Source: Maribacter caenipelagi
GTDB taxonomy: Bacteria > Bacteroidota > Bacteroidia > Flavobacteriales > Flavobacteriaceae
Assembly: GCF_004364175.1 (NCBI RefSeq)
Contig: NZ_SNZW01000017.1
Coordinates: 1-64,000, forward strand
DNA: 64,000 nucleotides
Reading direction: 5' to 3'
This document shows, in pieces, positions 10,721-22,593 of the stretch. How positions within the stretch are numbered: the first letter of the stretch is position 1; every line of letters begins with the position of its first letter. The notes under the pieces are model-generated. The model did not search any database and had not been told where the DNA came from. It was given only the letters and a program-made list of their open reading frames with translations. The position numbers and the translations under genes were made by a program.

Positions 10721-10784
10721 AGTTTTTGTAAAAATTATACGATGAGTGATGTCAAATAAATATAATTTGTACATTTACCCCGTA

Positions 10785-10871
10785 ATGAACGAAAAAAACT
10801 ACTTTCTAAATAGTACCGTGAGCGCAGTTGCTCTTGCGCGTCCGTTCACATCTCGCCGTCGTCGCCCGTAA
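10785..10871 (+). CDS. Arginine-rich leader peptide of the arginine operon
   Basis: A 28-codon ORF lying 85 bp before the first arginine-locus gene. It encodes MNEKNYFLNS, a short apolar segment, then five arginines in the last ten residues: ARPFTS followed by four consecutive Arg codons CGC CGT CGT CGC (10854-10865), Pro and stop. Arg CGN codons are uncommon in this AT-rich DNA, so the run is striking. Classical amino-acid leader peptides (his, leu, thr, phe) carry such runs of the regulated amino acid. By analogy, ribosome stalling when arginyl-tRNA is scarce would change folding of the downstream RNA. The ORF contains a hairpin (GTGA GCGCA / TGCGC TCAC, 10818-10849). Inferred role; too short for automatic gene calling. 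Confidence 0.75.
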   Translation: MNEKNYFLNSTVSAVALARPFTSRRRRP

Positions 10872-10917
10872 GGGTAAGATATAATTATGGAATTAGGTGA
10901 GTCCATTTCCGCACGAC
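10852..10917 (+). promoter_or_regulatory. Candidate attenuator pairing downstream of the arginine codons
   Basis: The four-arginine codon run can pair with downstream RNA in alternative ways. CUCGCC (10852-10857) pairs with GGUGAG (10896-10901). GUCGU (10858-10862) plus GC (10864-10865) pairs with GC-ACGAC (10911-10917), with one bulge. A ribosome halted on the Arg codons would block both. A U-rich stretch (TTTATTTTT) starts near 10929, too far from the last arm for a textbook terminator, so whether control acts on transcription or on translation is open. Pairing is read by eye; energies were not calculated. Confidence 0.35.
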
Positions 10918-10956: not shown

Positions 10957-11571
10957 ATGAACTTAATTGTTGCTAACGAATCACATTTTAAATACGCTCA
11001 GGATATTTGCGATACTATAGCTGATTCTGCTAAAGTTCGCGGTACGGGTATTGCGAAACGTACTCCAGAATACATCCAGAGAAAACTTTCTAACGGCAAT
11101 GCTATTTTAGCTTTGGATGGAGAAAAATTTGCAGGGTTCTGTTATATCGAGGTTTGGGGGCACGAGAAATTTGTTGCCAATTCTGGACTCATAGTACACC
11201 CAGACTACAGAGGTCAGGGACTTGCCAAGAAAATAAAAGCCAAGATATTCGATCTTAGTCGGGAGAAATTTCCAGATGCCAAAATATTCGGGATCACTAC
11301 TGGTTTAGCGGTTATGAAAATTAACTATGAACTTGGTTATAAGCCAGTTACATTTTCTGAACTTACTGACGATCCTGAATTTTGGAAAGGCTGCCAAACG
11401 TGTAAAAACTTCGATATTCTTACCAGAACAGAACAAAAGATGTGCTTATGCACAGGTATGCTATATGATGGCAACACAAAGAAAAAAACCGAAGAAGCTA
11501 AAGAAATGAACGGTAAAGCTTTTACAAGATTAAAAAGTATTAAAGAGAGTTTGTTTCTTAAAAAGAAATAA
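10957..11571 (+). CDS. GNAT-family N-acyltransferase, first gene of the arginine locus
   Basis: A 204-residue GNAT acetyltransferase with the acyl-CoA pyrophosphate loop VHPDYRGQGLAKKIKAKI. After the core it carries a cysteine cluster (CQTCKNFDIL, MCLCTG) that may bind metal. In Bacteroidota arginine clusters a GNAT gene like this sits directly before argG and is the best candidate for the first step, N-acylation of glutamate; no classical argA or argJ is in the window. Whether the acyl donor is acetyl-CoA or succinyl-CoA is not decided. The gene is preceded by the arginine-rich leader and followed by a possible terminator before argG. Confidence 0.75.
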   Translation: MNLIVANESHFKYAQDICDTIADSAKVRGTGIAKRTPEYIQRKLSNGNAILALDGEKFAGFCYIEVWGHEKFVANSGLIVHPDYRGQGLAKKIKAKIFDLSREKFPDAKIFGITTGLAVMKINYELGYKPVTFSELTDDPEFWKGCQTCKNFDILTRTEQKMCLCTGMLYDGNTKKKTEEAKEMNGKAFTRLKSIKESLFLKKK

Positions 11572-11645: not shown

Positions 11646-11719
11646 CTTTATTCTATTTGCCTAATTTCAATCAAATAAAACAATAATTACCCGGTATTAC
11701 CGGATTTGAACATATTAAA

Positions 11720-12907
11720 ATGAAAAAATTAGTACTAGCATACAGCGGCGGATTAGATACATCTTATTGCGCTAAACATTTATCAAAAGACAAAGGATTT
11801 GAGGTTCATGCAGTAAGTGTAAACACTGGCGGATTTTCATCGGATGAAATAAAGGAAATCGAGAAAAAAGCTATAGAACTTGGCGCAACTTCATACACCT
11901 CTATTGATGCCGTACAAACCTTTTACGACAAGGTAGTAAAGTACCTTATTTTTGGAAACGTATTAAAGAATAATACTTACCCACTTTCAGTGAGTGCAGA
12001 ACGAATCGTACAGGCAATTGAGATAGTAAACTATGCGAAGAAAGTAGGTGCAGGTTATATTGCACACGGTAGTACCGGCGCCGGTAACGACCAAGTTCGT
12101 TTCGATATGATTTTTCAAATCATTGCCCCAGAAATTGAGATTATCACTCCGATTAGAGATAACAAACTAGCAAGAGAAGAAGAGATTGCATATCTAAAAG
12201 AAAACGGAGTAGATTACCCTTGGGAAAAAGCAAAATACTCTATTAACAGAGGGCTTTGGGGAACATCTGTGGGCGGTGAAGAAACGCTAACTTCAGAAAA
12301 ACCATTGCCAGATAGTGCATACCCTAGCCAATTACAAGAAAAGAACCCTACAGATGTAAAGCTTACTTTCGAAAAAGGAGAATTGGTCGCTATTGATGGA
12401 GAAAAAGATACTCCCGTTGCCAATATTGAAAAGTTAGAAGCATTAGCTTCTAAATATGCCATTGGCAGAGATATTCATGTTGGTGATACCATTATTGGTA
12501 CTAAAGGAAGAGTCGGTTTTGAAGCTCCTGCGTCATTGATTATCATAAAAGCACACCATTTGCTAGAGAAGCATACACTTACGAAATGGCAACAATACCA
12601 AAAAGAGCAACAAGGTAATTTCTATGGTATGTTACTTCACGAAGGCAACTATCTAGATGCGGTAATGAGAAATATCGAAACCTTCTTGACGGATACTCAA
12701 AAAACCGTTTCTGGCGATGTATTTGTTGGTCTATACCCTTTTCAGTTTCGATTACACGGTATTTCATCTAAACATGATCTTATGACCGATGCTTTTGGTA
12801 AATATGGTGAGGTCAACAAAGGATGGACGGCAGATGACGCCAAAGGATTTATCAAGATTCTATCGAATTCAGGAAAGATATATAACCATGTAAATGGGGA
12901 TAAATAG
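11720..12907 (+). CDS. argG: Argininosuccinate synthase
   Basis: A 395-residue enzyme that condenses citrulline and aspartate with ATP to argininosuccinate. The PP-loop ATP motif AYSGGLDTSYCAKHL lies at the N-terminus. Later family motifs include YIAHGSTGAGNDQVRFD, YSINRGLWGTSVGGEE, and IGTKGRVGFEAPASLIIIKAHHLLEKHTLTKWQQ. The length is normal. Its TAG stop is the first base overlap of a GGAGTTA heptamer array. It lies within the arginine/proline locus, between the GNAT gene and argC. Confidence 0.97.
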   Translation: MKKLVLAYSGGLDTSYCAKHLSKDKGFEVHAVSVNTGGFSSDEIKEIEKKAIELGATSYTSIDAVQTFYDKVVKYLIFGNVLKNNTYPLSVSAERIVQAIEIVNYAKKVGAGYIAHGSTGAGNDQVRFDMIFQIIAPEIEIITPIRDNKLAREEEIAYLKENGVDYPWEKAKYSINRGLWGTSVGGEETLTSEKPLPDSAYPSQLQEKNPTDVKLTFEKGELVAIDGEKDTPVANIEKLEALASKYAIGRDIHVGDTIIGTKGRVGFEAPASLIIIKAHHLLEKHTLTKWQQYQKEQQGNFYGMLLHEGNYLDAVMRNIETFLTDTQKTVSGDVFVGLYPFQFRLHGISSKHDLMTDAFGKYGEVNKGWTADDAKGFIKILSNSGKIYNHVNGDK

Positions 12908-13026: not shown

Positions 13027-13065
13027 ATTACTTGATACTTGATACTCTTTACACAAAATAAAATT

Positions 13066-14040
13066 ATGATTAAAGCAGGTATTATTGGTGGTTCTGGTTA
13101 TACGGGTGGGGAACTTATTCGCATCTTATTGAATCATCCCGCAACGGAAATAGATTTTGTTTTCAGTACCACCAGAGCTGGAAAAAAAGTTACCACGGCT
13201 CACCCAGATCTATTAGGAACTACAGAACTTGAATTTACGGGAAATGTAAATCTAGATGTTAATGTTGTTTTTCTTTGCTTAGGTCACGGTAATTCTACTA
13301 CATTTTTAAAGGAACACAATTTCTCTTTAAACACCGTTATCATTGATTTAAGCAATGATTTTAGATTACATAACGATGCTGATTTTGATGGTAAACAATT
13401 TGTTTACGGTCTTCCAGAGCTATTTAAAAATGAAATAGAAAACGCTAAATATATTGCGAATCCTGGTTGTTTTGCTACTGCTATACAACTAGCGTTGCTG
13501 CCATTGGCAAAAGCAAATCTATTGCAAAATGAAGTGCATATTAATGCCGTAACCGGTAGTACAGGTGCAGGTGTTAGTCCGTCTGCTACTTCACACTTTT
13601 CATGGAGAAATAATAATGTTAGCTGGTACAAGCCATTTACCCATCAACATTTGGGTGAGATTAACGAGAGCCTACATTCACTTCAAGAAAATACTGGCAA
13701 CTTATTTTTTATGCCCAATAGAGGAAATTTCACTCGTGGAATTTTAGCGACTTCTTATACCAAATTTGAAGGCAGTTTAGGTGATGCCGAAAAAATCTTC
13801 CAAGACTTTTACAAAGATGCCATGTTTACCCAAATTTCTGATGAACCCATCAACCTGAAACAAGTGGTAAATACGAATCATTGCCATATTCATTTGCATA
13901 AACACGATGATATTTTGTTGATTACATCGGCAATTGACAACCTATTGAAAGGTGCATCTGGACAAGCGATACAGAATATGAATTTAATTTTTGGTCTAGA
14001 AGAAAATTTAGGCTTGAATTTGAAAGCAGGAGTCTTTTAG
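13066..14040 (+). CDS. argC: N-acyl-gamma-glutamyl-phosphate reductase
   Basis: A 324-residue NADPH-dependent reductase acting after ArgB. The N-terminal Rossmann motif is AGIIGGSGYTGGELIRIL, and the catalytic cysteine is in ANPGCFATAIQLAL. Further family motifs are TGSTGAGVSPSATSHFSWR and NHCHIH. I chose ATG 13066; a longer frame opening at a TTG (13039) would add nine non-conserved residues before the Rossmann strand. It acts on N-acetyl- or N-succinyl-glutamyl phosphate depending on the first step of the pathway. Confidence 0.95.
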   Translation: MIKAGIIGGSGYTGGELIRILLNHPATEIDFVFSTTRAGKKVTTAHPDLLGTTELEFTGNVNLDVNVVFLCLGHGNSTTFLKEHNFSLNTVIIDLSNDFRLHNDADFDGKQFVYGLPELFKNEIENAKYIANPGCFATAIQLALLPLAKANLLQNEVHINAVTGSTGAGVSPSATSHFSWRNNNVSWYKPFTHQHLGEINESLHSLQENTGNLFFMPNRGNFTRGILATSYTKFEGSLGDAEKIFQDFYKDAMFTQISDEPINLKQVVNTNHCHIHLHKHDDILLITSAIDNLLKGASGQAIQNMNLIFGLEENLGLNLKAGVF

Positions 14041-15024: not shown

Positions 15025-16149
15025 ATGAAATTATTTGACGTTTACCCACTATATAATGTTACTCCCGTTTCCGCCAAAGGAATAGTTGTAACCGATGATA
15101 AAGGACAAGATTATTTAGACTTTTACGGCGGGCATGCCGTAATATCCATTGGTCATTCGCACCCGCATTATGTGGAGCGATTAAAAGAACAGTTAGATAA
15201 AATCGGATTTTATAGTAATGCTGTTCAAAATCCGCTTCAAGTAGAACTTGCCGAAAAATTAGGTATAGTTTCCGGTTGTGAAGATTATAACTTATTCATG
15301 TGCAATTCTGGCGCCGAGGCAAATGAGAACGCCTTAAAAATGGCATCATTCGTAACTGGAAAATCAAAAGTTATTGCATTTAATAACGGATTTCACGGTC
15401 GTACGTCTGCTGCAGTAGCGGCTACCGACAACCCGTCTATCAACGCAGAGCTTAATCAACAACATGAGGTTGTGTTTTTAGACTTGAACGACATTAAAGG
15501 TTTTGAACGAGAAATTTCTAAAAATGTCTGTGCCGTAATTATTGAATCTATACAGGGTGTAGGCGGTTTAGATGAACCCTCTACCGAATTTTTACAACAA
15601 GTGGCTTTTCTATGTAAAGAAAACGACACATTATTAATTGCTGATGAAGTACAATCCGGATTTGGTAGAAGTGGAAAATTCTTCGGATTTCAACATCACG
15701 ACATACAACCTGATATAATCAGTATAGCTAAAGGTATGGGCAACGGCTTCCCTGTTGGTGGCGTTCTTATTCACGATGATATTAAAGCTAAATATGGTAT
15801 GTTAGGTACTACTTTTGGTGGTAACCATTTAGCATGTGTCGCCACCATGGCAGTTCTAGAAGTTATCGAAAAAGACAACTTAATTGCAAACGCCCAAGAA
15901 CTAGGAGATTATTTCAACGAAAAGGCAAAAGAAATTTCGCAAGTAAAGCGCGTAAAAGGCAGAGGCTTAATGCTTGGGCTAGAGTTTGATTTTCAAGTAG
16001 CCGATCTACGTAAAAAATTAATTCATGAGCACTTCCTTTTTACTGGGGGTGCCAAAGATAAAATGGTTCTAAGAATATTACCGGCATTGAATATTACAAA
16101 ACAAGATTTAGACGTGTTTTTCACAGCTCTTAATAAAGCCCTATCATGA
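15025..16149 (+). CDS. argD: N-acylornithine aminotransferase
   Basis: A 374-residue class III PLP aminotransferase. Motifs in order: YLDFYGGHAVISIGHSHP; CNSGAEANENALKMA; NGFHGRTSAAVAAT; LIADEVQSGFGRSGKFFGF; then IISIAKGMGNGFPVGGV with the PLP lysine in AKGMG. It converts N-acyl-glutamate semialdehyde to N-acylornithine with glutamate as amino donor. Somewhat shorter than the ~400 residues usual for the family, as is common in Bacteroidota. Its stop overlaps the start of proA by 4 bp, so the two are translationally coupled. Confidence 0.93.
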   Translation: MKLFDVYPLYNVTPVSAKGIVVTDDKGQDYLDFYGGHAVISIGHSHPHYVERLKEQLDKIGFYSNAVQNPLQVELAEKLGIVSGCEDYNLFMCNSGAEANENALKMASFVTGKSKVIAFNNGFHGRTSAAVAATDNPSINAELNQQHEVVFLDLNDIKGFEREISKNVCAVIIESIQGVGGLDEPSTEFLQQVAFLCKENDTLLIADEVQSGFGRSGKFFGFQHHDIQPDIISIAKGMGNGFPVGGVLIHDDIKAKYGMLGTTFGGNHLACVATMAVLEVIEKDNLIANAQELGDYFNEKAKEISQVKRVKGRGLMLGLEFDFQVADLRKKLIHEHFLFTGGAKDKMVLRILPALNITKQDLDVFFTALNKALS

Positions 16150-17529: not shown

Positions 17530-18297
17530 ATGTTGAAAAAGAGAATTTTATTGAAATTAGGTTCCAATACCTTAACCAAGGACACTGACCATATTTCTCG
17601 TGGTAAAATCGAAGATATTGGTAGGCAAATAGCTGCACTTAAAGATCAGTACGAATTTATTATTGTTAGTTCTGGCGCTATTGCGGCAGCGAAGCAATTC
17701 GTAAAGCTGGAACATAATGGTGAAGAAATCAATGTAAAGCAAGCACTCGCATCTATAGGTCAACCACACCTAATGCGTATTTTTCAAGAGAATTTTAGAG
17801 AACTAGGGCTTTTTACTTCACAATGTTTATTATCCTATTCCGACTTTGAAAAGGAGCAAACTAGAGTGAATATTAAAAACACAATAAATGTTCTCGTTGC
17901 CAATAATTTCATACCAATTATCAATGAAAATGATACTGTAGCCACTGATGAGATTAAGTTTGGAGATAATGATAAATTAGCGGGGTTGACAGCATCTCTT
18001 TTATCTGCAGATATATTAATTATTGCCACTAATACTGACGGAATTTATACAAAATCGTCTTTAGCTTCTTCAACACCAAAAACAATTGAGTTAGCATCAG
18101 ACTTGGGTGAACTCTTAAAAGAAATAGGGGAATCTAAATCGACCCATGGTACGGGGGGAATGCAATCAAAAATAGATGCAGCAACCATAGCCCAAAAAGC
18201 AGGTATTGAAACCTGGATCACCAATGGCTTAAAAGATCATTTCATTACCGATGCCATTGACAATAAAAGCACATTTACAAAAATTAAAGCATCATGA
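17530..18297 (+). CDS. proB: Glutamate 5-kinase, PUA-less short form
   Basis: A 255-residue amino-acid kinase that phosphorylates glutamate to glutamyl-5-phosphate with ATP. The N-terminus KRILLKLGSNTLT contains the kinase lysine and glycine. Others are IIVSSGAIAAA, NENDTVATDEIKFGDNDKLAGLTASL and THGTGGMQSKIDAATIAQKAG. It lacks the C-terminal PUA domain found in the ~370-residue enterobacterial enzyme. Its end overlaps the transcarbamylase start by 4 bp. Feedback inhibition by proline usually maps to the kinase domain, so it may be retained. Confidence 0.93.
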   Translation: MLKKRILLKLGSNTLTKDTDHISRGKIEDIGRQIAALKDQYEFIIVSSGAIAAAKQFVKLEHNGEEINVKQALASIGQPHLMRIFQENFRELGLFTSQCLLSYSDFEKEQTRVNIKNTINVLVANNFIPIINENDTVATDEIKFGDNDKLAGLTASLLSADILIIATNTDGIYTKSSLASSTPKTIELASDLGELLKEIGESKSTHGTGGMQSKIDAATIAQKAGIETWITNGLKDHFITDAIDNKSTFTKIKAS

Positions 18298-19235
18298 ACT
18301 ACCTTTCAATAAATGATATCGACTCTTTATCTACATGGGTAAAAGAAGCTATATCTCTTAAAAAAGAGCCTAAAAAACATAAAGAACTCGGAAGTGATAA
18401 AACTATTGGACTCCTATTTTTCAATAATTCGCTACGTACACGATTAAGCACCCAAAAAGCAGCTATAAATTTAGGCATGGAAGTCATTGTTATGAACTTT
18501 GGTAGTGAAGGCTGGGCTATAGAATATGCTGATGGAACAGTTATGGACCAAGGTACTTCTGAACATATTAAGGAAGCTGCACAAGTAATTTCTCAATATT
18601 GCGATATTATTGCTATTCGTGCTTTTGCAGGTTTGAAAGACAAAGAATTAGATGAAGCCGAAAAAGTTTTGAACGGATTTAAAACTTACGCATCTGTACC
18701 AATAGTAAACATGGAAAGTTCTATTGGCCACCCATTACAAGCACTAACCGATGCCATTACTTTAGAAGAACATAATTTCAAAAATAACCCTAAAGTAGTT
18801 CTGTCGTGGGCTCCTCACCCTAGGGCTTTACCACATGCGGTTGCCAATTCATTTATTCAAATGATGCAGAAGCAAAATGCTGAATTTGTAATTACGCATC
18901 CTAAAGGATATGAACTTGACCCAAACATAACCAAAGATTCCAAAATTGAGTATGACCAAGAGAAAGCTTTAGAAAACGCCGATTTTGTGTATGTCAAAAA
19001 CTGGAGTAGCTATTCTGATTACGGACAGATAAAATCTCAAGACACTAATTGGCAAATGACCCTAAAGAAACTAGGGAAAGCTAAATTTATGCACTGCCTA
19101 CCTGTACGTAGAAATGTAGTAGTTGCCGATGAAGTTTTAGACAGCGAACAATCATTGGTCATTGAACAAGCGAATAACAGAACTTACGCTGCACAATTGG
19201 TTCTAAAGAAAATACTGGAGACTAATGAAAATTAA
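18294..19235 (+). CDS. argF': N-acylornithine carbamoyltransferase (SOTCase/AOTCase type)
   Basis: A 313-residue transcarbamylase of the acylornithine type. Carbamoyl-phosphate motif FFNNSLRTRLSTQKA (residues 42-56) replaces the STRTR of ordinary ornithine transcarbamylase. It also has SSIGHPLQALTDA and the C-terminal HCLPVRRNVVVADEV. It makes N-acylcitrulline. The residue that separates succinyl- from acetyl-ornithine specificity in characterised enzymes (Pro90 in Bacteroides fragilis SOTCase, Glu92 in Xanthomonas AOTCase) aligns by eye with Ser89 in MDQGTSEHIKEAA, neither of the two. Overlaps proB by 4 bp. Confidence 0.9.
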   Translation: MNYLSINDIDSLSTWVKEAISLKKEPKKHKELGSDKTIGLLFFNNSLRTRLSTQKAAINLGMEVIVMNFGSEGWAIEYADGTVMDQGTSEHIKEAAQVISQYCDIIAIRAFAGLKDKELDEAEKVLNGFKTYASVPIVNMESSIGHPLQALTDAITLEEHNFKNNPKVVLSWAPHPRALPHAVANSFIQMMQKQNAEFVITHPKGYELDPNITKDSKIEYDQEKALENADFVYVKNWSSYSDYGQIKSQDTNWQMTLKKLGKAKFMHCLPVRRNVVVADEVLDSEQSLVIEQANNRTYAAQLVLKKILETNEN

Positions 19236-19407
19236 TAAATGGATTTACATAGGTATCGCTTTATTTGCATTCATTTTATTTATTGCCAATATGATGAATA
19301 TAGACCATAGTACTGCGCACTGGAAAACCTATATGGGTCCGGTCAGTAATATTATTCTCATTATTGCCATGGTACTCATGTTTAAATTTGCCGACTATGA
19401 AAAATAA
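19225..19407 (+). CDS. 60-residue membrane protein embedded in the arginine operon
   Basis: A 60-residue protein with two transmembrane helices (about residues 7-22 and 40-56) joined by a short polar loop (NIDHSTAHWKTYMGP). Its start overlaps the end of argF' by 11 bp and its end overlaps the start of argB by 11 bp. This double overlap makes it a real operon member, not a chance ORF. No family is recognised. Possibilities are a transport or anchoring accessory of the pathway, or an unrelated passenger. Confidence 0.75.
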   Translation: MKINKWIYIGIALFAFILFIANMMNIDHSTAHWKTYMGPVSNIILIIAMVLMFKFADYEK

Positions 19408-20176
19408 ACTAAGCGTTGTAAAAATTGGAGGCAATGTCATTGAAGATGAAAATGCTTTAGACACATTTCTTACCGCTTTTTCCAAAATTGAAGGCTTAAA
19501 AATATTAGTGCACGGTGGTGGAAAATTGGCAACTCAATTGGCTACGAAACTTGGCATTGAATCCAATATGGTAGATGGTAGGCGCATTACCGATGCAGAA
19601 ACTGTTGATGTAATTACCATGGTTTATGGTGGTCTCGCAAACAAAAAAATAGTGGCTCAACTTCAAGCTAAAAATATAAACGCAATTGGCCTAAGCGGTG
19701 CCGACGGTAATAGCATACAAGCACATAAACGACCCGTAAAGGAAATTGATTACGGATTCGTAGGTGATATTGAAGGGGTAAACCCTGAATTAATCAGCAA
19801 CCTCTTATCCATCAACCTTACGCCTATTTTCTGTGCTCTTTCGCATGATGGCGCCGGACAATTACTAAATACCAACGCAGATACAATTGCTTCAGAGATT
19901 GCCATTGGTATGGCATCTACTTATGAAACGACTTTATATTACTGTTTTGAGAAAAAAGGAGTATTAATGGATGTTGCCGATGATAATAGCGTAGTTAAGC
20001 ATATTAACACTGCTACTTACCAAAAGCTTTTATCAGATAACATTATTGCTGACGGAATGCTGCCAAAACTACATAATTGCTTTCATGCTTTGAACAACAC
20101 AGTTTCAAAAGTATGTTTAGGTGATGTTACCATGCTCGATAAAAATACAGAACTGTTCACTACAATAAAGCTTTAA
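19397..20176 (+). CDS. argB: N-acylglutamate kinase
   Basis: A 259-residue amino-acid kinase. It starts KNKLSVVKIGGNVIEDENAL, followed by LVHGGGKLATQLATKLGIE, DGRRITDAETVDVITMVYGG and LNTNADTIASEIAIGMAS. It phosphorylates N-acetyl- or N-succinyl-glutamate, the second step of arginine synthesis. I chose the ATG at 19397; the longest frame (from 19364) adds 11 residues that overlap the membrane-protein gene further and precede the conserved strand. One base separates its stop from argE. Confidence 0.93.
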   Translation: MKNKLSVVKIGGNVIEDENALDTFLTAFSKIEGLKILVHGGGKLATQLATKLGIESNMVDGRRITDAETVDVITMVYGGLANKKIVAQLQAKNINAIGLSGADGNSIQAHKRPVKEIDYGFVGDIEGVNPELISNLLSINLTPIFCALSHDGAGQLLNTNADTIASEIAIGMASTYETTLYYCFEKKGVLMDVADDNSVVKHINTATYQKLLSDNIIADGMLPKLHNCFHALNNTVSKVCLGDVTMLDKNTELFTTIKL

Positions 20177-20177
20177 G

Positions 20178-21242
20178 ATGAACCAAACAGAACTTACAGA
20201 AAGTGCTATAGCATTATTAAAGGAATTAATTTCAATAGAGTCTTTTTCTAAGGAAGAGGATAAAACTGCCGATGCTATACAATCTTGGTTGGCACATTAC
20301 GATATACCCACAGAAAGAGACCTCAACAATATTATTGCGAAGAACAAATTTTGGGACGATTCTAAACCGACGTTGTTACTGAATTCGCATCATGATACCG
20401 TAAAACCGAATACGGCTTATACTAAAGACCCTTTCTTTCCTCATATTGAAGATGGCAAGCTATACGGATTAGGAAGTAATGATGCTGGCGGACCATTAGT
20501 TTCACTTCTGGCAACTTTTGTGAATTATTATAATGCCGAAGACCTTAACCATAATATATTAATGGTCGCTTCTGCCGAAGAGGAAAATGCCGGTGAGAAC
20601 AGTCTACGTGGATTGTTACCTAAACTACCCCATATTGATGTAGCGATCGTAGGCGAACCTACTTTGATGCAACTTGCTATCGCTGAAAAAGGTCTGGTTG
20701 TTTTTGATGCCGTGATTAAAGGGACTCCGTCTCACGCAGCCCACCCTAACGACGACAATTCGATCTACAACTCCATTAAAGTTTTAGAATGGTTTAAGAA
20801 CTACAGCTTCGAAAAATCATCTGAAGCATTAGGAGATGTAAAAATGACAGTTACCCAAATTAGTGCTGGATCGCAGCACAATGTAGTGCCAGCTCAGGTT
20901 GATATGGTTGTTGATGTTCGTGTAAACGATGCCTATAGCAACAAAGAAATTGCAGATTTACTGAAGAAGGACGCGCCATGCGAATTAAAGGAGCGATCTT
21001 TACGCCTAAATTCGTCAAAAATAGATAAGAATCACCTGTTGGTTAAGTCAGGTATTGCACTAGGCAGAACCACTTACGGTTCTCCTACGCTTTCTGACCA
21101 AGCAGCATTAAGTTGCCAATCGTTAAAACTAGGTCCTGGAGACAGCACTCGTTCTCACTCAGCCAATGAATTTATCTATGTACATGAAATTGAAGAAGGT
21201 ATAGATTTGTATATTAAAATATTAAAAGGCTTCATGCACTAG
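20178..21242 (+). CDS. argE: M20-family deacylase, N-acylcitrulline/ornithine type
   Basis: A 354-residue zinc hydrolase of the M20 (ArgE/DapE/CPG2) family. Metal ligands are visible in LLNSHHDTVKP (His/Asp), GLGSNDAGGPLVSLLA, the catalytic SAEEENAGENSLRG and VAIVGEPTLMQLAIAEKG, and late GDSTRSHSANEFI. In pathways with an acylornithine carbamoyltransferase the substrate is N-acylcitrulline, so it would release citrulline for ArgG. It lies directly after argB (1 bp), within the same transcript. Confidence 0.9.
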   Translation: MNQTELTESAIALLKELISIESFSKEEDKTADAIQSWLAHYDIPTERDLNNIIAKNKFWDDSKPTLLLNSHHDTVKPNTAYTKDPFFPHIEDGKLYGLGSNDAGGPLVSLLATFVNYYNAEDLNHNILMVASAEEENAGENSLRGLLPKLPHIDVAIVGEPTLMQLAIAEKGLVVFDAVIKGTPSHAAHPNDDNSIYNSIKVLEWFKNYSFEKSSEALGDVKMTVTQISAGSQHNVVPAQVDMVVDVRVNDAYSNKEIADLLKKDAPCELKERSLRLNSSKIDKNHLLVKSGIALGRTTYGSPTLSDQAALSCQSLKLGPGDSTRSHSANEFIYVHEIEEGIDLYIKILKGFMH

Positions 21243-21315: not shown

Positions 21316-22593
21316 ATGAAACTCTGGGATAAAGGATTTAGCACTGATAAAAAGATTGATCATTTCACCGTTGGTAATGACAGAGAACTAGATTTACTTT
21401 TGGCCAAATACGATGTTATTGCATCTAGAGCTCATGCTAAAATGTTAGGAGAGATCGGATTGATTACGCCTAAAGAAACTCATGACCTCGTAAGAGAGTT
21501 GAATACTATCGCTGCACGAATAGAAAAAGGAACTTTTACCATAGAAAATTCTTTTGAAGACATGCATTCTAAAATAGAATACATGCTTACCCTTAGTTTA
21601 GGCGATACTGGTAAAAAAATACATACCGCACGCTCTAGAAACGATCAAGTTTTAGTGGCTATGCACCTATATTTAAAGGATGAGTTAACAGAAATTAAAT
21701 CGATGACCAAGTCGCTCTTTAATCTTCTTTTAGTAAAAGCCCAAGAACATAAAGATGTTATGTTACCAGGGTATACGCATTTACAAATTGCCATGCCCTC
21801 TTCATTCGGACTATGGTTTTCTGCTTATGCAGAGAGTTTAATAGATGACCTATATTTTATTGAAGCTGCCTATAAAGTTGCTGATCAAAATCCGTTAGGC
21901 AGTGCTGCAGGTTATGGTAGCTCATTTGCTATCGACCGTAGATTTACCACTAAAGAAATGGGCTTTAGCACACTAAAATATAATGTAGTTGCCGCTCAAA
22001 TGAGCAGAGGGAAAGTAGAAAAAGCAACTGCATTCGGCATCGCAAATATTGCAGCAACACTTTCTAAAATGGCAATGGATATTTGTTTGTACATGAGTCA
22101 GAACTTTAACTTCATCTCTTTCCCAGATGAGCTGACTACCGGTTCTAGTATAATGCCTCATAAGAAAAATCCTGATGTATTTGAATTGGTACGAGGCAAG
22201 TGTAATAAACTACAATCTATTCCTAATCAGTTGACTATAATCATCAATAATTTACCTAGTGGTTATCATAGAGATTTACAATTGGTGAAAGAAATTATAG
22301 TACCGGCAATACAAGATATGAAGGCATGCTTGGAGATTTTGACCTTTAGCCTTAAAGAAATTAAGGTCAACAAAGAAATTCTAGAAGACCCAAAGTATGA
22401 CTATCTATTTAGTGTTGACACTTTAAACGAACTGGTACAAAACGGAATGCCTTTTAGAGACGCCTATAAGAAAATGGGTATGGAGATCAACGAAGGTACT
22501 TTCACTCCGAAGAGAGATATTCATCATACGCACGAAGGCAGTTTAGGCAATCTTTGTTTGAAGGAAATTAATGATAAAATGAAGGAGGTTTAA
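21316..22593 (+). CDS. argH: Argininosuccinate lyase
   Basis: A 425-residue member of the fumarase/aspartase superfamily. It cleaves argininosuccinate to arginine and fumarate. Signature TTGSSIMPHKKNPDVFELVRGK contains the catalytic serine. Other motifs are KIHTARSRNDQV, MLPGYTHLQIAMPSSFG and PLGSAAGYGSSFAIDR. It ends the arginine/proline run. The TAA stop overlaps the stop of the convergent YihY gene. The spacer before it carries ACTTGATACTTG-like repeats. Confidence 0.96.
   Translation: MKLWDKGFSTDKKIDHFTVGNDRELDLLLAKYDVIASRAHAKMLGEIGLITPKETHDLVRELNTIAARIEKGTFTIENSFEDMHSKIEYMLTLSLGDTGKKIHTARSRNDQVLVAMHLYLKDELTEIKSMTKSLFNLLLVKAQEHKDVMLPGYTHLQIAMPSSFGLWFSAYAESLIDDLYFIEAAYKVADQNPLGSAAGYGSSFAIDRRFTTKEMGFSTLKYNVVAAQMSRGKVEKATAFGIANIAATLSKMAMDICLYMSQNFNFISFPDELTTGSSIMPHKKNPDVFELVRGKCNKLQSIPNQLTIIINNLPSGYHRDLQLVKEIIVPAIQDMKACLEILTFSLKEIKVNKEILEDPKYDYLFSVDTLNELVQNGMPFRDAYKKMGMEINEGTFTPKRDIHHTHEGSLGNLCLKEINDKMKEV

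Follow-up and report, generated by a model that had tools for sequence, protein, structure and literature searches.

The question raised by this locus is whether a short open reading frame (ORF) that ends in a run of Arg codons senses arginine on behalf of the arginine genes behind it. In the window, that is, the whole 64,000-nucleotide stretch of Maribacter caenipelagi DNA analysed, the first gene after this leader encodes a GNAT acetyltransferase (10957–11571; PF00583, with an NCBIfam score below threshold). It is followed, all on the plus strand, by argG for argininosuccinate synthase (11720–12907; TIGR00032 over the cut-off), argC (13039–14040, start uncertain; TIGR01850 over the cut-off), an argD-like transaminase gene (15025–16149; TIGR00707 under the cut-off), an acetyl/succinyl-ornithine carbamoyltransferase-like gene (18294–19235; PF02729/PF00185, NF003384 just under the cut-off), argB (19364–20176, start uncertain; TIGR00761 over the cut-off), a gene for an argE/dapE-family deacylase (20178–21242; PF01546, TIGR01910 under the cut-off) and argH (21316–22593; TIGR00838 over the cut-off). 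GNAT is thus succeeded by a series of arginine and proline genes, of which argG and argC come first. An arginase-family gene (PF00491, 8540–9322) lies two genes upstream of GNAT, and the gap between GNAT and argG contains a terminator-like hairpin of minus-strand sense, CCCGGTATTACCGG, at 11689–11705.

The leader ORF (10785–10871, plus strand) encodes MNEKNYFLNSTVSAVALARPFTSRRRRP followed by a stop, and its translation agreed with what the earlier note had read there: 28 residues with Arg at positions 19 and 24–27, a Pro and a TAA stop (10869–10871). All five Arg codons (10839–10841 and 10854–10865) are CGT or CGC. The stop and the ATG of GNAT at 10957 are 85 bases apart, with argG and argC next, hence the placement of the ORF just before GNAT-argG-argC was correct as well. 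A search of the host genome at E ≤ 10 returned the leader as a single copy. The earlier note had made its proposal depend on conservation at homologous GNAT-argG loci, and such conservation was found, as the ORF precedes GNAT-argG in 79 of 79 assessable related loci besides the window; one truncated locus (L078) was excluded from all counts. These close loci were the best 80 of 531 relatives in a GNAT protein search, and the set therefore leans towards close kin; among these best 80, the nearest relatives of the GNAT protein belong to Maribacter, at up to 98% identity. Throughout the close loci and the window the ORF ends in RRP (once in SRP). Since the loci and genomes are related, counts across them throughout this work refer to non-independent events. 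Judged by this comparison, the leader peptide is real and conserved.

The reading frame itself carries the marks of coding. The last 20 codons of the 80 close loci contained no in-frame stop in 1600 codons, versus 57 and 85 in the other frames, and Arg made up 20.9% of these codons versus 2.8% in the window genes (37 non-overlapping ORFs of at least 200 codons). Across 42 divergent loci, a single stop was found in frame versus 58 and 52 elsewhere, with Arg at 22.6%; one further divergent locus (L139), which has an insertion in the hairpin B described below, was left out of the counts for coding, codon choice, hairpin A, pair changes and the terminator pattern. We infer from these codon statistics that the ORF is translated. 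It is very improbable that the ORF is non-functional and kept merely by overlap with a conserved RNA element. Its last Arg and Pro codons (CGC CCG) do lie inside hairpin B and are nearly fixed, and over the 12 codons that precede the final three the Arg fraction in the close loci was 0.098 in frame versus 0.097 in one other frame, which would suit such a passive ORF. Against it stand the gaps among aligned close loci, which are mostly multiples of three, the lack of in-frame stops, and the CGY-biased Arg codons upstream of hairpin B; over the same 12 codons of the divergent loci the Arg fraction was 0.185 in frame versus 0.046 and 0.030.

The choice among Arg codons points to what may be sensed. 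CGT and CGC had been described as uncommon in this DNA, and indeed they account for 23% and 5% of the Arg codons in the window genes (28% together), with AGA at 51%. At leader positions −4 to −11, which lie outside hairpin B, CGY was used for 54 of 54 Arg codons in the close loci and for 67 of 84 in the divergent ones; further upstream, at −12 to −19, it was used for 0 of 8 and 1 of 11, respectively. A CGY bias restricted to the end of the ORF is expected if one Arg tRNA is being sensed. CGY codons are read by tRNA-Arg(ACG); the window contains no tRNA genes. The number and spacing of the Arg codons differ among lineages. According to the part of a modelling study that was available, high sensitivity of an attenuator requires a particular choice of synonymous codons (PMC1183508).

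Upstream of the ORF, a promoter-like box, ATAATTTG TACATTTA, was located at 10762–10777 on the plus strand, and its second half resembles TAnnTTTG, the −7 element of Bacteroidetes. The form T[TC]GTAC[AT]TT was present in 80 of the 80 close loci, where the leader ATG begins 17–20 bases past the start of the box. About 40 bases further upstream, many close loci contain a conserved A/T block (TTTTTGTAAAAA-like; 10724–10737 in the window), which may serve as an activator site or UP element, or may mark where the transcript of the upstream gene ends.

Absent from the earlier note was a conserved two-hairpin RNA element (10864–10910, plus strand), which overlaps the stop codon of the leader and extends beyond it. 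Hairpin B (GCCC-GUAA-GGGU; 10864–10875) draws its 5′ arm from the last Arg and Pro codons, each in part, and holds the stop codon in its loop. An A/T-rich spacer follows (10876–10888), which measures 11–16 bases among the aligned loci; of the 51 rows, 42 have a spacer of 13 or 14. Hairpin C (10889–10910) displays a bulged A, two inner G-C pairs and the loop UGAGU (loop sequence AGGUGNGUCC), which reads UGNGU in relatives. The B/C region is nearly invariant throughout the close relatives; the structure was evaluated on 51 rows that include divergent loci and were chosen by hand for spread. Both-side changes were observed at 8 of the 12 pairs with 98.0% of cells paired, and 53 cells changed on both sides versus a mean of 10.3 in shuffles and 1–13 when the partners were slid by 1–3 columns, the alignment having been fitted to the structure and so leaning towards it. 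These rows omit one chance row (L071:3576); in a 61-row version that includes it the values were 9 of 12 pairs and 63 cells, and that row alone made one of the pairs count. Covariation thus strongly supports hairpin C, in which 7 of 8 pairs changed on both sides. Hairpin B is more weakly supported by comparison: 99.0% of its cells are paired, and its case consists of this invariance, of a both-side change at one of four pairs (to A-U in L160 and L164) and of a version seen by eye in L144, CGCAC-GTTT-GTGCG. As a whole, the window leader folds no better than its shuffles (z +0.90). A search with Rfam families, T-box included, returned three chance-level matches (16–19 bits), none near its gathering score, and the B/C element is therefore one without an Rfam match.

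A third hairpin may form within the ORF itself. Comparison with relatives placed hairpin A, GAGC-GCAGTT-GCTC, at 10820–10833 on the plus strand. At this place the close loci gave a mean z of −1.59, with 60 of 80 below −1; their apex lay 33.7 ± 2.6 nt upstream of the final Arg codon. For the 42 divergent loci the mean was −1.21, with 21 below −1. The minimum-energy fold of the window prefers another pairing there. The fold scores suggest a hairpin inside the ORF at a near-constant place, as supportive rather than decisive evidence.

Two readings of loop C were considered and set aside. As a Shine-Dalgarno-like site (AGGUGA against the 16S tail) it fails at position 6, which varies among A, U and C, and the loci L142 and L159 have AGAUG together with a compensating change. 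Reuse of the loop elsewhere in the genome was likewise dismissed: AGGTGNGTCCA occurs twice, the same as its reversed control, and no such hairpin was seen by eye at the second place (L165).

To follow the element across genomes, a covariance model (R1) was used that had been built from relatives of the genomes later searched with it. R1 matched 153 of the 249 genomes of the family, the Flavobacteriaceae, with a single match per genome except in G094 and G178 among the matches listed. In a draw from the phylum, 16 of 395 genomes matched, 14 of them in the family and two elsewhere at about 24 bits. A broader model (R2) matched 30 of 296 genomes drawn from the order (22 in the family, eight elsewhere at 21 bits or less) and 14 of 247 drawn from the class (three in the family, 11 elsewhere at 23.2 bits or less). 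In the phylum, order and class draws there were therefore no convincing matches outside the family, all outside scores being 24 bits or less. The range of Flavobacteriia proposed in the earlier note is accordingly too wide, since among the genomes drawn the leader belongs to one family, and not to all of it. Within the family, all 40 of the mid and weak matches examined sit 37–237 bases before a match to GNAT, behind which argG and argC come next. Among the 96 genomes of the family with no match, 20 were inspected: 17 of these have no GNAT at E ≤ 1e-20, and the other three (L195, L198 and L202) show a diverged B/C element by eye. The genus g127 (9 of 9 genomes) and the genome G181 have a GNAT relative, but gave no model match and no element recognisable by eye, which indicates that the operon can run without the leader. 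In three g127 loci (L190, L192 and L194) the region upstream of GNAT contains an inverted repeat, TTTGTCCA-T-TGGACAAA, and no leader; this repeat is possibly an operator that replaces it.

The arginine repressor was looked for as well. No ArgR (PF01316) was found in 45 genomes, comprising the 99.99%-complete assembly of M. caenipelagi itself and 44 others; as a control, PF01316 matched 9 of 14 genomes, including Bacteroides ihuae. The statement that no ArgR gene is visible in the window hence extends to the whole assembly. Since leaderless genomes are likewise without ArgR, the lack of this repressor is not by itself an explanation for the leader.

In another reading, hairpins B and C form a ligand- or protein-binding RNA akin to a riboswitch, with the leader peptide serving for tuning only. 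Few stretches are as conserved as loop AGGUGNGUCC, more so than a plain stem would require, and the element normally occurs as a single copy before the arginine operon, as in the 40 matches just described. We nevertheless consider this reading unlikely: it would not call for Arg codons held at the same place with a codon bias, Rfam returned no match, and an inner pair of hairpin C becomes A-U in L142, L159 and, by eye, L195.

Divergent loci reveal how much of the leader can change. Among 40 divergent loci, which were chosen by hand from the mid or weak R1 matches in the family, 18 have no ATG between the preceding in-frame stop and the end of the ORF. L129 and L140 do have ATGs in frame, but only misplaced ones, either five codons ahead of the last Arg codons or past them. 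All these ORFs would therefore have to use TTG or GTG as their start, close to where other loci have their ATG. L157 has no Arg run. From the last Arg codon to the stop there is one codon, mostly Pro, in 27 of the 42 divergent loci and 3 to 20 codons in the other 15. Endings such as RRTFVRA, RRLVRV, RRPLGV and RRPFGYDLH occur among the divergent loci.

These endings bear on the proposal that the nascent peptide, rather than its codons, is the sensor. The precedents are the fungal arginine attenuator peptide and TnaC, nascent peptides that halt their own ribosome in response to a high metabolite level. By analogy, FxPRRRRP-stop would arrest the ribosome on its stop codon in the presence of abundant arginine, or of some other metabolite; plenty would then keep hairpin B from forming, giving the opposite polarity to a codon-based sensor. 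In 22 hand-picked, aligned close leaders the Pro before the stop is invariant and the Phe nearly so, and the 80 close loci use only TAA (74) and TAG (6). The pattern FxPRR(R)P is thus kept in close relatives beyond its Arg residues; a sensor of codons alone does not need it, and we counted this against such a sensor. Part of the invariance near the stop, however, stems from hairpin B. Two observations make arrest by the nascent peptide improbable: the divergent endings are variable, with 1 to 10 codons (once 20) separating the stop from the last Arg, and outside hairpin B the use of CGY is strict, which is unexpected if the peptide alone matters.

How such a leader might act on the genes downstream was approached through a search for terminators. 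The same genome carries classical leader peptides for his (MKNRTTHHHFHIHAQAR; L208, G000:C10:19000-21500, minus strand) and ilv (MKLLNLHIEIVIVIPI; L209, G000:C5:395500-397500), each followed by a hairpin and a T-run. The terminator scan of the tool used returned nothing on the plus strand after the arginine leader, but it also missed the his and ilv terminators, making its negative result unusable. A terminator pattern of our own found both of these (11-pair stems) and gave no match in the window from the leader to 60 bases into GNAT. It did match 9 of the 80 close loci, only at hairpin B (5 pairs) with its A/T-rich spacer, versus 2 of 80 shuffles, and 17 of the 42 divergent loci, 15 at or around hairpin B and two (L130 and L133) inside GNAT. 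Given these matches at hairpin B and its spacer in some loci, we do not call the leader terminator-free; by sequence pattern, a strong terminator after the leader is absent, while in some lineages B and the A/T-rich stretch behind it look like a short terminator. No antiterminator pairing was detected, the consensus fold of 60 loci giving only hairpins B and C. Nor did the predictions indicate that the GNAT start is sequestered, as its predicted accessibility was 0.48–0.50 in every condition, including removal of B or C.

The analysis thus did not establish classical attenuation, to which the earlier note had likened the leader: the pattern gave no terminator in the window and, among the 80 close loci, matched the short B plus spacer in 9, and no antiterminator pairing was detected. 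The output could even so be one of the known types of transcription attenuation, in which hairpin B and its spacer would act as a short intrinsic terminator, or Rho would end transcription, whenever the ribosome does not stall. This alternative is nested, as the arginine sensor may stay the same, and we regard it as a serious candidate, although somewhat short of even odds. The his and ilv leaders of the same genome have terminators, and the loose pattern recurs at B in the close and divergent loci at the frequencies given above. Yet the pattern is found in a minority and is absent from the window, its stems have about 5 pairs where those of his and ilv have at least 11, hairpin B would be masked by any ribosome that sits on the stop codon, and hairpin C is left without a role.

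The reading that we prefer is that the leader is a ribosome-mediated arginine sensor, in which the folding of hairpins B and C lowers expression of the operon and stalling relieves it; we assign this a probability of roughly 0.68. The sensor suggested in the earlier note is well supported by comparison: the conserved coding ORF is rich in Arg, biased to CGY near its end, preceded by a promoter-like box and linked to the operon, so that the leader is very probably an arginine sensor. Comparison among genomes likewise provides hairpins B and C, their fixed location and the absence of ArgR. As the ORF begins 17–20 bases past the start of the promoter-like box, a ribosome would load on the leader early. 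When Arg-tRNA for CGY codons is scarce, we infer that it stalls at the CGY codons of the ORF end; these lie just before and within the 5′ arm of hairpin B, and a ribosome stalled there would keep B unfolded. When arginine is plentiful, the ribosome would read on to the stop, located within B or immediately behind it, and leave, whereupon B and C would fold together. The folded B-C unit would then lower expression of GNAT-argG-argC and the genes beyond, which a stalled ribosome would relieve; the folded unit was chosen as the off state because a biosynthetic operon should rise under limitation. Candidates for the output step are weak termination at B and the A/T-rich spacer, Rho, RNA decay, or a factor that binds loop C. 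Several results weigh on the other side: the pattern gave no strong terminator, predicted access to the GNAT start did not change, the window leader as a whole folded no better than shuffles, both-side change in B was limited to one pair of four, some divergent leaders lack an ATG or (L157) the Arg run, close relatives keep FxPRR(R)P, and g127 and G181 do without the leader. A bolder form of this idea, which we hold only tentatively and consider rather doubtful, makes the B-C pair a new, family-specific output device for a leader-peptide sensor, with the UGNGU loop being read by RNA polymerase, the ribosome or another protein, such that stalling would control the whole operon without a strong terminator.

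If the preferred reading is correct, the leader offers an answer to how flavobacteria devoid of ArgR may control arginine synthesis, and it suggests arginine as a further amino acid with a leader peptide on its own biosynthetic operon; the analysis has also brought to light an RNA element that is conserved and matched no Rfam family. Such leaders had been called little described for arginine, which stands in part. Arg-codon leader ORFs have been published, namely orf34 (DUF2618) of the Salmonella speF leader (PMC6386406) and the short upstream ORF of rbf in Staphylococcus aureus (PMC13009471), and in the accessible parts of these reports neither stands before an arginine biosynthetic operon. 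The literature searched, which included few subscription journals and some sources in part only, contained no report of an arginine leader peptide ahead of such an operon in Bacteroidetes. In the same family, a report on Flavobacterium psychrophilum mentions "clues" of leader-peptide attenuation before amino-acid biosynthesis operons; its available part names no amino acid, and overlap with arginine is possible (PMC9723704).

In the speF leader, consecutive Arg codons sense arginine and alter downstream folding, much as proposed here; unlike the present locus, it controls ornithine decarboxylase rather than arginine biosynthesis, with an output through RNase G and Rho, as described in the accessible part of that paper (PMC6386406). 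In rbfL of S. aureus, Arg codons sense arginine limitation through ribosome pausing, but there are two of them, AGA and AGG, and a ribosome that pauses on them occludes the ribosome-binding site of rbf, which makes limitation repressive, as far as the available part of the report goes (PMC13009471). The carAB operon of Pseudomonas aeruginosa resembles our locus in having a leader peptide before an arginine-linked gene, whereas its attenuation is tied to pyrimidines and arginine acts at another level, according to the part of the source at hand (PMC4997734). A further likeness is to the his and ilv leaders of the same genome and to the trp and his attenuators of enterobacteria, in which a short ORF rich in codons for the end product lies upstream of the operon and is followed by RNA hairpins. 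Those of his and ilv are hairpins of at least 11 pairs with a T-run, whereas the arginine leader is followed in the window by the short hairpins B and C and no such terminator; searches that start from strong terminators would miss a leader of this kind, and similar leaders may therefore exist for other operons.
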